Shown one piece after another: positions 20,940-36,578 of a DNA stretch of 37,755 nucleotides. The position numbers and the translations under genes are program-made. Source of the stretch: Bacteroidales bacterium (GTDB lineage Bacteria; Bacteroidota; Bacteroidia; Bacteroidales; WCHB1-69); assembly GCA_012522535.1 (NCBI GenBank), contig JAAYKF010000012.1, positions 1 to 37,755 on the forward strand, given 5' to 3'. How positions within the stretch are numbered: the stretch's first letter is position 1; each line of letters opens with the position of its first letter. The notes beneath the pieces were generated by a model. It ran no database searches. It was not told the origin of the DNA and was given only the letters and a program-made list of their open reading frames with translations.

Positions 20940-22106
20940 TTACAAATCCAAACCAAACTCATTCCATGGCAAAACTGTTGCCTTAGTTCTTCTTTGCTTT
21001 TCTGTTCCACTATATACCAATATAGGATTGAGGTTTTTCAAATTAGAAATTCGCGAGAAATAATTTAATCCTTTAAATACATCAGGCATAATTGTACTTG
21101 TAGATTTGAACTCAATTACATCATATTGATTGGCATTTTCAACTAACAAATCAACTTCATTGTCTGCAGAATCACGCCAAAACCAAACATCTTTTAAATC
21201 ATTATTATGATACATTTGCTTATAATACTCAGCCACCATAGCATTTTCAAACAGAGCTCCCTTTACTGGAAGTTTTTGCAATTGTTCTATGTCAAAAATT
21301 TTCAACAAATAAGAAAGTAAACCTGTGTCATAAAAATATAGTTTTGGAGTCTTAACTATGCGTTTGCTAAAGTTTTTATAATACGGATGAAGCAAAAAAA
21401 GAACATAAGAATTTTCCAATACCGACAACCATGCCTTAGCCGTTGGCTGCGAAATACCACACTCTTTTGCAAGTGCATTCAAATTGAGTAGTTGCCCAGC
21501 ACGACTGGCACAAAGTCCCAAGAAATTTTGAAACAATCTAATATCTTTAACATTTAGCAATTCGGTAACATCGCGCTGAACGTATGTTTGCACATAGTTT
21601 GAATAAAATGTTTTCGAATTTATATCTCGTTGATAAATTGCAGGATAATATCCCCTTAAAATATTAAATAGATAATCTTCTTCATTCAGCCAATTTGCCA
21701 ACTTAAGTTCCTTATTATCAAAAGGAAACAGCTTGAATATTGCAACTCGTCCAGCCAAACTTTGAGTTATATGTTGCATCAAATGAAAATTTTGTGAGCC
21801 TGATAAAATAAATTGCCCCATAATTTTCGACTCATCTACTATGGGCTGTAAATATGAAAACAAAGAAGGCACACGTTGGGCTTCATCAATTACAACATAA
21901 GAGTCGTATTCATTTAAAAAAGCCTTAGTGTCGTTTTCGGCATAAGCTCGAAGATCGGGATTCTCTAAATTCACATATTTATAATCAGAAAACATCTCTC
22001 TCAACATAGTCGTTTTCCCCGACTGTCTCGGACCAGTAACAGCAATAATTGGATACTTTGATGTCAATTTTCTAATTGATGATTCTATATTTCGCTTCTC
22101 TGTCAT
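20940..22106 (-). CDS. AAA ATPase with DUF4143-type C-terminus
   Basis: 388 residues. The N-terminal AAA_14-type ATPase has Walker A GPRQSGKT (25-32), Walker B VVIDEAQ (71-77), a sensor segment ILSGSQNF and LAGRVAIFKLFPF. A winged-helix-like stretch follows (LNLNALAKECGISQPTAKAW with LSVLENSYVL). The C-terminal DUF4143 region ends with NEVDLLVEN...YDVIEFKST, a D...ExK arrangement like the PD-(D/E)xK nuclease fold. This large family is common in Bacteroidota, spirochaetes and archaea; its function is not established. The start codon lies 36 nt from a -7 element and next to a seven-copy 22-bp direct repeat, so self-regulation or site-specific DNA binding through these repeats is plausible. Transcribed alone. 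Confidence 0.88.
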   Translation of the reverse strand: MTEKRNIESSIRKLTSKYPIIAVTGPRQSGKTTMLREMFSDYKYVNLENPDLRAYAENDTKAFLNEYDSYVVIDEAQRVPSLFSYLQPIVDESKIMGQFILSGSQNFHLMQHITQSLAGRVAIFKLFPFDNKELKLANWLNEEDYLFNILRGYYPAIYQRDINSKTFYSNYVQTYVQRDVTELLNVKDIRLFQNFLGLCASRAGQLLNLNALAKECGISQPTAKAWLSVLENSYVLFLLHPYYKNFSKRIVKTPKLYFYDTGLLSYLLKIFDIEQLQKLPVKGALFENAMVAEYYKQMYHNNDLKDVWFWRDSADNEVDLLVENANQYDVIEFKSTSTIMPDVFKGLNYFSRISNLKNLNPILVYSGTEKQRRTKATVLPWNEFGLDL

Positions 22107-22125
22107 AACATTTTGTTTTTCAGTG

Positions 22126-22133
22126 CAAAGATA
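22126..22133 (-). promoter_or_regulatory. -7 element for the AAA ATPase gene
   Basis: TATCTTTG on the minus strand fits TAnnTTTG, about 20 nt before the ATG. The 22-bp repeats begin 7 nt upstream of it, and the first repeat covers the -33 position. Confidence 0.5.
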
Positions 22134-22140
22134 TATATAA

Positions 22141-22294
22141 TTTTGAAATTACACAACATCTATTTTGAAATTACACGTTCTTAACTTTGAAATTACATAA
22201 CTTCTATTTTGAAATTACATGACTTCTATTTTGAAATTACATGCCCTCTGTTTTGAAACTAAATGCTTCCAATTTTTAAATTACAACGATAAAA
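22141..22294. repeat. Seven direct 22-bp repeats (iteron-like)
   Basis: Seven head-to-tail units of exactly 22 bp start at 22141, 22163, 22185, 22207, 22229, 22251 and 22273. The core TTTTGAAATTACA is kept in units 1-5 (unit 3 begins with C); the remaining 9 bp vary, with C(T/C)TCT(A/G) common. Units 6 and 7 are degenerate. A 22-bp period is two helical turns, putting every core on one DNA face, as in iterons or operator arrays. It is not a multiple of 3 and not coding. The array abuts the promoter of the AAA ATPase gene. Confidence 0.9.
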
Positions 22295-22474: not shown

Positions 22475-22507
22475 AAAAAAACAGCGACAATATATGTCGC
22501 TGTTTTT
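22475..22507 (-). terminator. Terminator of the hydrogenase operon
   Basis: A perfect 13-bp stem (AAAAACAGCGACA with TGTCGCTGTTTTT) around a 5-nt loop. On the minus strand it ends in a run of seven T. It lies 24 nt past the hydC stop. Confidence 0.88.
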
Positions 22508-32074: not shown

Positions 32075-33928
32075 ATGAACACTACCTCAAAATTGGTCGA
32101 TGAGCTTATTTTACGTAATGATATTCACATAATTGACGAATATGTTTCAACAGAATTAGAGATTACGGAAATTTACGAAAGAATACTGAAAAAAGGAGAT
32201 AATAAAGCCATTTTATTTAAGAATAATGGAACAAATTTCCCTTTGCTAATCAATGCCTACGGCTCGGAAGAGAGAATGAATTTAATTTTAGACACCCAAT
32301 CTTTGGACGAAATTGGTAAACGCATTTTGGTGATGCTAAATGAAGCCACAAAGCCTGCCACAAAGATGATGGAAAAACTCTCGAAACTACCCCTGTTAAA
32401 GGATGTTGCATCGTGGCTTCCATCTCGCTCTGCCTATCGAGCAGCTTGTCAGAAAGTTATTATGACAAATGTTGATTTGGACCTCTTACCAATTTTGAAA
32501 TGCTGGCCCTACGACGGCGGAAAATTCATCACCCTACCTTCGGTGCATACCTTAAATCCTGAAAATGGGGTTACAAATGTAGGGATGTATCGAATGCAGC
32601 AAATCGACAAAAAGTCCACTGCCATGCACTGGCATCTGCATAAAGATGGGGCAAAACATTACGAGATGTACAAAAAAAGAGGTGAAATAATGCCCGTTAC
32701 CGTTACCCTTGGTGGCGACCCAATTTTTGCCTATTGTGCCTCTGCTCCGCTTCCCGAAAATATTGATGAATATCTGCTGGCTGGCTTTTTAAGAAAAAAG
32801 AGGGTTAACCTTGTAAAATCTCTCACCAATGATATTTGGATTCCCTCCAACGTTGATATTGTAATTGAGGGCTACATCGACCCCCAAGAGGAACTTTTCT
32901 ACGAGGGTCCATTTGGTGACCACACTGGCTACTACTCTTTGGCCGATTTTTACCCAAAATTTCATGTAACAATGATAACGCACCGCGTTGATGCCATATA
33001 CCCTACCACCGTTGTAGGCGTGCCTCCGCAAGAGGACCGCTGGTTGGGTAAAGCCACCGAAAGGATATTTTTAACACCCCTCAGAATTGCCATTGCTCCC
33101 GGTGTGATAGATATGAATTTGCCCTATCAGGCTGGTTTTCACAATTTGGCAATAATACAGATAGAAAACAGCTTCCCATCGCAGTCGTATTCGGTGATGA
33201 GCTCGCTGTGGGGTGCCGGACAAATGATGTTCAATAAAATAATGTTAGTAGTGCCTTCGGATGTTAATCCACATGATGAAGAGGCTGTTTGGAACTCCCT
33301 AAAAAATGTTTTGATTGAGAGAGATATAATGTTCACACGCGGTCCTGCCGACGTTCTGGATCACGCTGGAAGAAGATATGCACAAAGTGGGAAAATTGGC
33401 ATCGATGCTTGCAACGAAAATCCATATTTCCAGAAACCAATATTTAAAAGCGAAGTTTTTGAAAAAGAGTTCCCCAATATTACATATGACGACAGTTTGT
33501 GCCAAAGGGGAATTCCTGCAATATTTTTTGGTATTGAAGAAGAAACCCGCAACAACCCCCATAAAGTTTTGGCTGATATTATGGAGACAGATTGCATGGA
33601 AAATATATCATTTATAATATTTTTCGACAACAATTTCCCTCTTACAAATAGAGACATTTTAATTTGGCAATTGGCAGGCAACATCGACCCACAATACGAT
33701 TGCACCATTGTTGAAACCGACGACAATTTTATGCTTCTGATAGATGCTTGCTCAAAAGTTGACCACTCCGACTTCACCCGAAACTGGCCCAATGTTATTG
33801 CCATGGACGATAAAACCATAGAGAGCATAAACGATAAATGGAAAATAATTTTTGGCGAAGAAGCACCCTCCTCACCCTCTTTGGAGTTGAAACGGATGGT
33901 AAAGAATGAAGGAGCCGTCGCAAAGTAG
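32075..33928 (+). CDS. UbiD-family prenylated-FMN decarboxylase
   Basis: 617 residues, longer than E. coli UbiD (about 497) and close to the large Bacteroidota members often annotated as menaquinone-pathway decarboxylases. The prFMN site is clear: Asn168 and Arg173 in TNVGMYRMQ, the phosphate-side MHWHLHKDGAKHY stretch, and Glu277 and Asp282 in YEGPFGDHTGYYS; Arg173, Glu277 and Asp282 form the expected catalytic group. Such enzymes remove or add carboxyl groups on aromatic or unsaturated acids with the cofactor supplied by a UbiX prenyltransferase, which is not in this window. A menaquinone (futalosine pathway) role is plausible but not shown here, as no other mqn gene is near. It is separated from the next gene by a promoter and a TPP riboswitch, so it is not in that unit. 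Confidence 0.92.
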   Translation: MNTTSKLVDELILRNDIHIIDEYVSTELEITEIYERILKKGDNKAILFKNNGTNFPLLINAYGSEERMNLILDTQSLDEIGKRILVMLNEATKPATKMMEKLSKLPLLKDVASWLPSRSAYRAACQKVIMTNVDLDLLPILKCWPYDGGKFITLPSVHTLNPENGVTNVGMYRMQQIDKKSTAMHWHLHKDGAKHYEMYKKRGEIMPVTVTLGGDPIFAYCASAPLPENIDEYLLAGFLRKKRVNLVKSLTNDIWIPSNVDIVIEGYIDPQEELFYEGPFGDHTGYYSLADFYPKFHVTMITHRVDAIYPTTVVGVPPQEDRWLGKATERIFLTPLRIAIAPGVIDMNLPYQAGFHNLAIIQIENSFPSQSYSVMSSLWGAGQMMFNKIMLVVPSDVNPHDEEAVWNSLKNVLIERDIMFTRGPADVLDHAGRRYAQSGKIGIDACNENPYFQKPIFKSEVFEKEFPNITYDDSLCQRGIPAIFFGIEEETRNNPHKVLADIMETDCMENISFIIFFDNNFPLTNRDILIWQLAGNIDPQYDCTIVETDDNFMLLIDACSKVDHSDFTRNWPNVIAMDDKTIESINDKWKIIFGEEAPSSPSLELKRMVKNEGAVAK

Positions 33929-34006
33929 TTTTTTCAGACTGCCTCATTTTACTCTGCAGAAAAAAATCTTTTTTCCCAAAAGGAGTGCTATCTCAATAAT
34001 TATTCC

Positions 34007-34014
34007 TAATTTTG
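34007..34014 (+). promoter_or_regulatory. -7 element before the TPP riboswitch
   Basis: TAATTTTG fits TAnnTTTG. The predicted start near 34021 coincides with the 5' edge of the riboswitch aptamer, which supports both calls. Confidence 0.65.
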
Positions 34015-34019
34015 CAACA

Positions 34020-34101
34020 CTTAAAAGGGGTGCCCTAATATTACGGGCTGAGAACAAACCCATTGAACCTGATACGGGTAGTGCCGGCGTAGGGAGCTTT
34101 G
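34020..34101 (+). ncRNA. TPP riboswitch (THI element)
   Basis: All conserved blocks of the thi-box are present in order: GGGGTGCC (34027-34034), GGGCTGAGA, ACCCATTGAACCTGAT, and GGGTAGTGCCGGCGTAGGGA, closed by an AAAG/CTTT P1 stem. The aptamer binds thiamine pyrophosphate. About 72 nt separate it from the receptor ATG. A T-run with an upstream TCCC (34127-34135) could pair with the GGGA of the aptamer, but this would compete with ligand binding, so I do not assign a mechanism. Repression of the downstream receptor at high TPP is the expected outcome. Confidence 0.95.
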
Positions 34102-34172
34102 GTAATTTTAAATATCTGAATGGTTTTCCCTTTTTAGCTATTCTTATGTTTAATCGAAAAATGAGAAAACTC

Positions 34173-36578
34173 ATGAAAAAATTAATTTTAACCTGCATCT
34201 TTGCTACTGCTTTGTGGCATATTGGTGCTCAATCAAACCTTAGAGGTAAGGTCTATGACAAACAAAACAACGAAACTCTTGCTGGTGCCCATGTGGTGGT
34301 TGAAGAGTCGTACAAAGTGGCCAGCAGCGACAAAAATGGCTACTTCGAAATTAAAGGTTGCAAAACTGACAGCCTAATTGTAAAAATCAGTTTTCTTGGG
34401 TATCAAACTTTGGTGAAAAGTATATCCATCAACGACAACATCGAACACAAATTCTACTTGGAGCCCACCACAATTATGAATGAAGAGATTATAATTCTCT
34501 CCACACGTTGGGGCGAAAACACTCCAACCGCACACACCAACATCAACAAAGCCGAAGTGCAAAAACTTGTAGATGCCCGAAACATTGGCTCCATGATTGA
34601 ATTTACACCTTCGGTTGTAACCACTTCCGACGCTGGAACAGGCATTGGAAATATTGGATACAGAATTAGAGGTACTGACGAAACCAGAATTAATGTTACT
34701 ATAAATAATGTCCCCCTCAACGACCCCGAATCGCAGGGTGCATGGTTTGTAAATTTGCCCGATTTTGGCTCATCAGTGGACAATATTCAAATTCAGCGTG
34801 GCGTTGGAACCTCAACCAATGGAAGCGGTGCCTTTGGCGGAAGTATAAATTTTCAAACTACAAAACTGAACAACAAAGCTTATGCCGAAATAAACGAATT
34901 TGTTGGCTCATACAACACCTTTAAGCACAATTTAAACTTCGGAACTGGACTTATTGCAGATAAATTTGCCTTCGATGGAAGAATCTCCAAAATCACCTCC
35001 GATGGCTATATCGACAGGGGTTATGCCGACCTAAACTCATCTTATTTTTCGGGTGCATATTATGGCAAAAAAACAATGATAAAGGCATTGGCACTCCTTG
35101 GTTCTCAAGAGACTTACCAAACTTGGGACGGAATTCCTTCCCAGATATTAGATACAAACAGAACCTGGAACGGAATTGGAATGTATAAAGATAGCGAGGG
35201 CAACACCAAATTTTATGACAATGAAACCGACAACTACAAACAAAATCACTTCCACTTACTTATTTCGCACGATATTACCACTCAACTAAATATCAATTCA
35301 ACTATATTCTACACCCGTGGAATTGGGTATTATGAACAATATAAACAGAATAGAAAATATTCAGAATATGGTTTCGAAAATCAAATTGTGGGTAGAGACA
35401 CCATAAAAAGAACCGATTTTATTAGACGTAAGTATTTGGACAACAACTACTACGGTGCAAATATTGCCCTTACATATCAATCGCAAAAAATACCACTACA
35501 AATTGTGTATGGAGTTTCTGGAAGTCAGTTTGACAACGACCACTACGGCGATGTTATTTGGATGAAAATTGCTGGAGATATCGACAATAATACCCGATTT
35601 TATGAAGGCAATGGCCTGAAAACAGAAGCATCTACCTTCCTGAAAACCAATTATATGCCCACAAAAGAGCTTAATCTGTGGTTAGATTTACAAGGTCGTT
35701 TTGTAAATTATAAAATTGATGGAATTAATGATAAGTTATTGGATATAACCCAAGAACACAACTGGAATTTCTTCAATCCCAAAGCTGGAATTAGCTATAA
35801 TATAAATTCATCAAATACAATTTTCACATCATTTGCAGTGGCACAACGCGAGCCTACAAGAACAAATCTTGTGGATGCTCCCTATGGCGAAACTCCTACA
35901 TCTGAAATGCTTTACGACTACGAGATTGGGCATCAATTGAGACTAAACAAATTTAGCCTGCAAAGCAATTTATACTATATGGACTACAAAAACCAACTAG
36001 TCTTGACAGGTGAAATAAACAATACTGGTGCTGCCATTATGACCAATGTTGACAAGAGTTATAGAACTGGTATTGAGATAGTTGGACAATATAAGCCCAT
36101 TAAAAACTTAGCTTGGAATTTTAATTTCACACTAAGCAGAAACAAAATAGAAAACTTTGTAGAATATGTTGACGATTGGGACACTGGCATTCAAAGAGTT
36201 ACAGAATTAGGCACTACTGATTTGGCTTTTTCACCCGAAATTATTGCATCACACTCATTGGAATATTATATCACCAAACAATTGAGTGTTAGCTATATAC
36301 AAAAATATGTTGGCAAACAATATATTGACAATACCTCCAACGAAGACCACAAACTAAATCCATACTTTTTGAATAATATCCAAGTTAGATATGGAATTAG
36401 CAAAAACTGGCTCAAAAATGCAAGTTTAGTCTTTATGGCAAACAATATTTTTAATTATAAATATGAAACCAATGCCTGGATTTATAGATATTATTCAGGC
36501 AACGAACATAAGTTTGAAGATGGATATTTTCCACAAGCCGGACGAAATTTTATGCTGGGAATAAGCTTGGCAATATAA
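34173..36578 (+). CDS. TonB-dependent receptor, probably for thiamine
   Basis: 801 residues from the ATG at 34173, the start that gives a clean signal peptide (MKKLILTCIFATALWHIGAQ). Two in-frame ATGs lie 12 and 27 nt upstream; a longer frame reaching into the riboswitch and the end of the UbiD gene is not real. A carboxypeptidase-regulatory-like domain (about 23-105, LRGKVYDKQNNETLAGAHV) precedes the plug (SMIEFTPSVVTTSDAG, YRIRGTDETRINVTINNVPL, IQIQRGVGTSTNGSGAFGG) and a 22-strand-type barrel that ends FPQAGRNFMLGISLAI with the aromatic-last pattern. Control by a TPP riboswitch marks the ligand as thiamine or a precursor, as for the outer-membrane thiamine receptor of Bacteroides. No PnuT-type inner-membrane transporter follows; a terminator ends the transcript. 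Confidence 0.92.
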   Translation: MKKLILTCIFATALWHIGAQSNLRGKVYDKQNNETLAGAHVVVEESYKVASSDKNGYFEIKGCKTDSLIVKISFLGYQTLVKSISINDNIEHKFYLEPTTIMNEEIIILSTRWGENTPTAHTNINKAEVQKLVDARNIGSMIEFTPSVVTTSDAGTGIGNIGYRIRGTDETRINVTINNVPLNDPESQGAWFVNLPDFGSSVDNIQIQRGVGTSTNGSGAFGGSINFQTTKLNNKAYAEINEFVGSYNTFKHNLNFGTGLIADKFAFDGRISKITSDGYIDRGYADLNSSYFSGAYYGKKTMIKALALLGSQETYQTWDGIPSQILDTNRTWNGIGMYKDSEGNTKFYDNETDNYKQNHFHLLISHDITTQLNINSTIFYTRGIGYYEQYKQNRKYSEYGFENQIVGRDTIKRTDFIRRKYLDNNYYGANIALTYQSQKIPLQIVYGVSGSQFDNDHYGDVIWMKIAGDIDNNTRFYEGNGLKTEASTFLKTNYMPTKELNLWLDLQGRFVNYKIDGINDKLLDITQEHNWNFFNPKAGISYNINSSNTIFTSFAVAQREPTRTNLVDAPYGETPTSEMLYDYEIGHQLRLNKFSLQSNLYYMDYKNQLVLTGEINNTGAAIMTNVDKSYRTGIEIVGQYKPIKNLAWNFNFTLSRNKIENFVEYVDDWDTGIQRVTELGTTDLAFSPEIIASHSLEYYITKQLSVSYIQKYVGKQYIDNTSNEDHKLNPYFLNNIQVRYGISKNWLKNASLVFMANNIFNYKYETNAWIYRYYSGNEHKFEDGYFPQAGRNFMLGISLAI

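Follow-up and report, generated by a model that had tools for sequence, protein, structure and literature searches.

PDC-S01 is a phage defence candidate in PADLOC in which an ATPase is fused to a PD-(D/E)-X-K member. In the accessible part of its source, it ranks fourth in frequency among the defence systems and candidates of prokaryotes, with 29,494 cases in bacteria and 9,986 in archaea (PMC12988326). Validation is pending for most such defence candidates, as far as that text goes, and the defence activity of PDC-S01 is a candidate activity both there and here. The subject of this study is a member of the same protein family, P0001, and the array of seven 22-bp repeats that precedes its gene in a Bacteroidales bacterium (assembly GCA_012522535.1, contig JAAYKF010000012.1; the home genome). 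The whole stretch of 37,755 bases that was analysed is referred to as the window.

The domain combination of P0001 is already in print (PMC4158269; PMC12988326, both in the parts available). A table entry describes arCOG03166 as an AAA+ ATPase with helix-turn-helix and RecB nuclease domains that is "likely involved in defense", and the part of the article at hand describes no DNA site for it (PMC4158269). The accessible text of PMC12988326 contains none of the strings "operator", "autoregul", "promoter" or "winged"; "repeat" occurs four times in other senses, and cognate repeats are not mentioned. A literature search on DUF4143, AAA_14 and PDC-S01, with most subscription papers and bioRxiv outside its coverage, found no account of such repeats. 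DUF4143 was named in one paper of the literature searched, in a Thermus expression table.

The nearest described regulatory arrangement is that of RptR, a small separate repressor in a Type I restriction-modification defence island that, according to the available text, binds three direct repeats (PMC12255303). Both loci have direct repeats overlapping a defence promoter, bound for repression in the case of RptR and presumably bound here. The two differ in that RptR is a separate regulator with one conserved TAGCTA site, whereas here the effector ATPase is the apparent reader and the site diverges by clade. The array also resembles BrickBuilt, a miniature inverted-repeat transposable element (MITE) with 23-nt head-to-tail repeats in another Bacteroidota genome, that of Porphyromonas gingivalis (PMC4596501, in part). 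BrickBuilt was rejected as an identity for the array: its unit is AGAYCATARTATCCTCTCRTRTG, compared by eye with TGTAATTTCAAAATAGAAGTCA in gene sense at 22-bp spacing here, and it has IS5-like terminal repeats. The word "ATPase" does not occur in the accessible text of that article.

Repeats upstream of DUF4143 ATPase genes

The seven repeats are real. Their cores start at positions 22141, 22163, 22185, 22207, 22229, 22251 and 22273 (the last ending at 22285), a spacing of exactly 22 bp. As the initial annotation had described, five units are nearly invariant and two are decayed: TTTGAAATTACA is kept in five, the sixth reads TTTTGAAACTAAA and the seventh TTTTTAAATTACA. The 13-mer core is exact in four units, with one mismatch in two and two mismatches in one. 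The range first given, 22107-22294, takes in the promoter as well as the repeats proper (Table 1); a -7 box lies between array and ATG. We take TANNTTTG to be the consensus of the Bacteroidota -7 box.

At a score of at least 50, Tandem Repeats Finder reported this array alone in the window (period 22 and its multiple 66). The 13-mer with up to two mismatches gave 20 matches against 8.8 expected, a number reached in none of 100 shuffles. Repeats scattered through the genome had been named as an observation that would speak against the link to the gene. In the home genome (2.45 Mb, 194 contigs), two exact 11-letter cores lie 21-23 bp from each other only at the array. Two exact single 13-mers occur elsewhere, and a reversed control pattern gives an equal number.

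The association between array and gene was examined in both directions. A scan of one genome per species in 84,980 species, with two exact cores 21-23 bp apart as the query and genes ignored, returned 86 loci. At 55 of them, spread over many genera, a family ATPase was recognised with confidence by a profile made from relatives of P0001 (E < 1e-15). The profile match at L078 resembles another AAA protein and was left out of this count, and the stretches of L110 and L124 end before any gene could be seen. The array is upstream of the ATPase gene, in the same orientation as in the window, at 54 of the 55 loci, and is reversed at none; the check in related species that had been called for therefore came out in favour of the association. 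At 50 of the 54 the last exact core precedes the first in-frame ATG by 13-153 nt, and the remaining four (L061, L087, L126 and L129) have interrupted or decayed reading frames.

The register of these arrays is nearly constant. The 53 arrays examined have 2-18 units each, spaced by 22 or 23 bp in 196 of 209 cases. In 41 arrays the last unit is followed by a TANNTTTG box, which in 36 of these 41 lies 18-22 nt from the start of that unit. Given the -33/-7 geometry of such promoters, the last unit would occupy the expected -33 to -7 stretch, with the repeats overlapping or adjoining the promoter of the ATPase gene.

It had also been proposed that arrays lie only next to DUF4143 ATPases. This held for the 55 loci above and failed in its strict form: 31 of the 86 have no confident ATPase within the stretches examined, and the arrays are thus not confined to these genes. 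Among the 31, tblastn found an ATPase N-terminus reaching the end of the stretch at L117 and L128 and fragments at L067, L115, L131 and L132; the other 25 have no ATPase trace or could not be judged. Arrays without an ATPase trace were seen in Pedobacter and Dyadobacter (L056, L122, L068, L095, L097 and L120). Judged by their neighbours, these six occupy places where L067, L129 and L131 keep decayed ATPase remnants, and they are probably relics.

The home genome itself has eight DUF4143 matches, six of them above the Pfam cut-off. Read by eye, seven of the eight genes have their own distinct upstream repeats, the eighth (L012) being unclear. The first four sets are the 22-bp array of seven units, a 33-bp unit in 3.5 copies, a 31-bp palindromic unit in two copies, and GGGAGAAAAGTGTA with its last copy on the ATG. 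The other three are TTTTCGAGTAT, also with its last copy on the ATG, a unit of about 33 bp in three copies, and a pair ending at the ATG.

Family genes were then compared with control genes. Besides the home genome, 39 genomes were searched, 28 of which had a match, and 80 stretches with family genes were fetched as a hand-picked subset of the match list, selected by protein and not by repeats. Together with the eight home loci, they make a set of 88 loci with 96 family genes (including two dubious long branches, L212_15 and L165_20) and 344 control genes from the same stretches, scored under identical rules. The direct score measures self-similarity at lags of 15-60 from 300 bp before to 30 bp after the ATG. 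It was at least 15 in 45 of 96 family genes and 24 of 344 controls; the counts were 59 and 45 at a cut-off of 12, and 13 and 7 at a cut-off of 30. Many of the other family genes have a single long inverted pair. Counting phased direct repeats and such pairs together, 66 of 96 family genes qualified, compared with 45 of 344 controls (Fisher, 1e-25), or with 37 of the 210 controls in which the intergenic DNA was 100 bp or longer (Fisher, 5e-18). The best lag fell within 21-23 or 31-33 bp, about two and three helical turns of DNA, in 48 of the 59 family genes with a score of at least 12 and in 18 of the 45 such controls. The lag bands, the inverted-repeat criterion and the cut-offs of 15 and 12 were all fixed after inspection of these data. 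Lag class tracks the protein tree, with 7 changes among 50 labelled genes against a mean of 14.4 and a minimum of 10 in shuffles.

Further sets were scored in the same way. In a fresh set from another bacterial family, drawn by protein, 49 of 55 genes passed by either criterion, and 31 of the 38 with a score of at least 12 had lags inside the two bands; of 275 shuffles, none passed the direct criterion and two passed the inverted one. Among archaeal members, 24 of 60 passed by either criterion. The direct score was at least 12 in 24 of 60, 19 of them at 32-34 bp, compared with 2 of 300 shuffles; archaeal gene starts were taken as the first in-frame ATG, and several are probably misplaced. In Firmicutes, 10 of 25 passed by either criterion, and two of the seven whose direct score was at least 12 had their lag at 32-33 bp. 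The archaeal and Firmicutes sets were drawn from the orders of the L057 and L079 (plus L109 and L124) genomes, and Proteobacteria were hardly sampled. Usable genes came from 55 of 56, 20 of 22 and 60 of 65 loci in the fresh, second and archaeal sets, and from 75 of 80 in another set. The sequences thus suggest a family rule by which these genes carry private, phased sites at their promoters, weakly in Firmicutes and partly in archaea. Copy number can be high in archaea: G117 and G112, in the same order as G040, have 31 and 21 DUF4143 matches in single genomes.

Site sequence and the recognition helix

The repeats differ in sequence between relatives, and the differences appear to follow the winged helix of the ATPase. 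Of 40 relatives sharing 41-63% identity, 39 were usable and 31 of these passed by either criterion. Read by eye, and with some looser cases, the helix motif SQPT pairs with TGTAATTTCAAA at 22 bp; S(L/I/V)PT pairs with units like TGTAAA(A/T)C.GAAA at a spacing of 23 bp; SSPT and motifs close to it pair with a single inverted pair of TTTATGTAAATTTAAA; and D-x-K-T pairs with inverted GGAAT. A prediction was fixed before fresh genes were seen, namely that Lys or Arg at residue 221 goes with at least two GGAWT between -150 and +10. In the hold-out genes, GGAWT was found in 15 of 15 with Lys221 and in 6 of 40 without it (p 5e-9). One of the 15, L351, is identical with the gene at L225, and its upstream DNA had already been inspected; without it the counts are 14 of 14 and 6 of 40. 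In a second set, in which upstream DNA had been inspected earlier and helices had not, they were 4 of 6 and 1 of 14.

Over the 155 discovery and hold-out genes, GGAWT is best predicted by Lys at 221 (p 4e-13) and then by Asp at 219 (9e-11), the next residue reaching 8e-6; this test used columns at least 85% filled and residues present in at least 8 genes. Both positions lie at the start of the recognition helix. Within the clade that has the site of the window, conservation of residues 204-223 is 0.91, equal to the best ATPase stretch, while that of the nuclease core is 0.64, under the average of 0.70. The site sequence would thus follow the protein's own winged helix, and the covariation supports the ATPase as the reader of its site, a role that the initial annotation had raised as a possibility.

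A Firmicutes member on a Ruminococcus albus plasmid (L418, 1812-1992) has the same ISQPT helix and, at intervals of about 23 bp, repeats of the type CTTTGAATT(A/G)CA. These repeats are near the Bacteroidota site in sequence and opposite in orientation.

The P0001 protein and its surroundings

P0001 exceeds the Pfam cut-offs for both AAA_14 and DUF4143, and it matches seven PADLOC PDC-S01 models along the whole protein (best E 5.8e-95). A sequence search of the PDB gave no match at E 0.1, and NCBIfam gave none. Residues K31, T32, D74 and E75 are invariant among 42 aligned sequences. An AlphaFold2 model from this alignment had a predicted local distance difference test score (pLDDT) of 93. In it, residues 1-270 match two archaeal ATPases, 2qen of P. 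abyssi (Z 15.5 over 245 residues) and 2fna (SSO1545; Z 14.6 over 243 residues). P0001 shares with them the nucleoside triphosphatase (NTPase) domain followed by a winged helix, the arrangement of the STAND/archaeal ATPase fold. The STAND proteins NLR, CED-4 and Avs5 score lower (Z 11-13), and other AAA entries score about 10-12.

The alignment to 2qen and 2fna ends at model residue 269, and the C-terminal domain was matched separately. Modelled alone, it had a pLDDT of 91, and its best Foldseek matches were Cdn1, Hjc, BspD6I, McrBC and Can2 (best E 3.5e-4, TMq ~0.4-0.6). E287 is invariant, and D319, E332 and K334, the last two forming an E-x-K motif, are conserved in at least 90% of the 42 sequences. 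The C-terminal domain is therefore modelled as a PD-(D/E)xK-type fold with these E, D and E-x-K residues, on a structural match of moderate strength. Modelling the C-terminus for this fold had been suggested at the outset, and the predicted order of ATPase, winged-helix-like middle and D...ExK motif agrees with Pfam, the model and the conserved residues. The predicted architecture of P0001 is thus that of a STAND-like NTPase joined to a winged helix and a putative PD-(D/E)xK nuclease domain. The presumed defence role of its family comes from the PADLOC label and the literature only.

Table 1. Positions of the array, the promoter and the P0001 gene with its domains in the window.
Feature	Position	Strand	Basis or detail
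DUF4143 ATPase gene, P0001, 388 aa, PADLOC PDC-S01	20940..22106	-	Pfam AAA_14 + DUF4143
PD-(D/E)xK-like nuclease core (putative), residues 283-340	21087..21260	-	E287, D319, E332, K334; conservation and fold of the domain alone
Winged helix-turn-helix, residues 189-258, proposed array reader	21333..21542	-	helices 189-201, 209-216, 220-232; strands 236-239, 255-258 (model)
Recognition-helix region, residues 217-232, GISQPTAKAWLSVLEN	21411..21458	-	219 and 221 covary with site
NTPase domain AAA_14, Walker A GPRQSGKTT, Walker B VVIDEAQ	21705..22061	-	Pfam, conservation, fold
Bacteroidota-type -7 box TATCTTTG, ATPase promoter	22126..22133	-	between array and ATG; sequence
Seven-unit 22-bp array	22139..22293	-	core TGTAATTTCAAAA in gene sense, TTTTGAAATTACA on + strand

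The gene on the other side of the array encodes a 2Fe-2S thioredoxin-like protein. Between that gene and the array, at 22477-22507, is a perfect 13-bp hairpin, probably the terminator of the 2Fe-2S protein gene. Elsewhere in the window, a thiamine pyrophosphate (TPP) riboswitch (Rfam RF00059, 66.4 bits) lies at 34016-34114 on the plus strand, inside the first 210 bases of the open reading frame at 33906-36578; the true start of that gene is therefore probably downstream of the riboswitch.

Probable autorepression and its alternatives

We consider it reasonably probable that array and gene form a one-gene, self-reading regulatory unit, the ATPase binding to the array and acting as repressor of the gene that encodes it. 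The winged helix of the DUF4143 ATPase would bind units lying on one face of the DNA helix and running into the -33/-7 promoter, and cooperative binding would exclude RNA polymerase. Such autorepression would keep a potentially harmful nuclease at a low level. This reading is drawn from the units on one face, the last unit in the promoter, the inverted pairs that sister clades have on or close to the ATG, and the private sites of paralogues. Since the site sequences of paralogues differ, each copy would control only itself. Physical binding, repression as opposed to activation, and oligomerisation on the array are the parts that we infer.

Several observations weigh against this reading. The position of the array alone is compatible with activation too. 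Neither repeat criterion is passed by 30 of the 96 family genes and 36 of the 60 archaeal genes, and the Firmicutes signal is weak. In the sole exception among the 55 ATPase-bearing motif loci, L112 (3470-3560), the 22-bp units lie at the 3' end of the gene. Over the 155 genes, 9 of 39 with Lys or Arg at 221 lack GGAWT, and 17 of 116 without these residues have it. A test on phylogenetically independent pairs, of which starred branches provided 9, gave 4.4 pairs for the Lys221-GGAWT association against 0.2, with 4.4 undecided and a median p of 0.125, which is in the right direction and not significant. In a general scan for site similarity over 326 columns, the nuclease-domain columns 313 and 314 came top, 221 was eighth and 224 sixteenth; with 221 only eighth, relatedness is not fully removed.

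The ATPase may instead bind its array as an activator, or stay parked on it in a complex that turns the nuclease on when released. The array would then serve a STAND oligomer as a place of assembly or sensing and would not be a plain operator. STAND relatives become active as oligomers, and the best PDB matches of the model include the NLR, CED-4 and Avs5 assemblies besides 2qen and 2fna. Arrays of up to 18 units also go beyond the needs of simple repression. Against this, the last unit adjoins the -7 box, and in many relatives a single inverted pair has its end at the ATG or close by, which reads as occlusion. This alternative appears rather unlikely. Similarly doubtful is a broader proposal in which PDC-S01-type genes would be self-addressed across Bacteria and Archaea, each with a phased array or an inverted pair that its winged helix would read by a decipherable code. 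The address would then be both the operator and a nuclease-gating STAND assembly site of a mobile 1.2-kb unit, with a specificity that diverges to prevent cross-talk among copies.

The initial annotation had suggested a small self-regulating or mobile unit. Self-regulation is the half that is favoured; mobility fits only in part. It is improbable that array and ATPase form a compact mobile or selfish unit that spreads as ~1.2 kb without a transposase, its nuclease cutting in at sites of its own type. Several homologous pairs with no similarity in the flanks examined do align, beginning at the array and ending close to the stop codon, but such endpoints are expected for diverged genes anyway. 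On the Emticicia plasmid pEMTOL02 (L415, 1226-4685), the gene and an inverted site lie antisense between araA and araD of the arabinose operon. Among 8 araA loci from 11 Emticicia genomes searched, araD abuts araA in four; of the other four, two have a gap of about 0.6 kb, one has no araD in the stretch and one is the carrier. The abutting genes in four congeners indicate that what arrives with the gene can be no longer than 1.26 kb, and the insertion suggests that gene and site travel together. P0001 relatives were also found on 373 of 72,556 plasmid records. Decayed copies at L067, L115 and L131 leave the array behind together with the C-terminus of the ATPase, and at L131 also a scrap of its middle. 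These three were considered as non-autonomous MITE-like elements and rejected, the DNA suggesting decaying genes instead. Set against mobility, Dyadobacter copies are syntenic and vertically inherited, and the tree is mostly one of inheritance within orders (11 order changes, with a minimum of 6 and a shuffled mean of 22.2). Neither terminal repeats nor target duplications were defined.

It is very unlikely that a separate host regulator reads the repeats. Promoter arrays are usually the targets of dedicated regulators, RptR being an example in the text available (PMC12255303), but here the sets of paralogues differ within one genome and the site appears to track the recognition helix of the ATPase across genera. 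The largest cluster of shared neighbour genes takes in 10 of 54 loci, all of them Spirosomataceae and nine named Dyadobacter; with no widely conserved neighbour gene, no other regulator travels with the array-ATPase pair. Replication or partition iterons, to which the array had been likened at first, or a neutral slippage minisatellite would account for exact head-to-tail units with decaying outer ones, yet either is hardly credible: nothing supports a replication role, the neighbours are the AAA_14 + DUF4143 gene and the 2Fe-2S thioredoxin-like gene and no replication initiator gene adjoins, one genome has several different arrays, cores are conserved across genera in a fixed promoter register, inverted-pair forms are not made by slippage, and arrays are less common before control genes than before family genes.

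The sequences thus add to a common candidate defence family what appear to be gene-specific, helically phased sites and a partly readable recognition code. If autorepression is correct, self-regulation by an ATPase-nuclease in place of a separate repressor would, in our judgement, be unusual for a defence gene. The code is testable in its pairing of Asp219/Lys221 with GGAWT and of SQPT with TGTAATTTCAAA. A cognate site for each gene is also a biochemical handle, since it offers a predicted ligand for the winged helix, a promoter assay, and the question of whether array occupancy gates the nuclease. The family may yield many orthogonal DNA-binding domains with readable sites, and the site array would give a direct handle on the control of a widespread gene suspected of acting against viruses.
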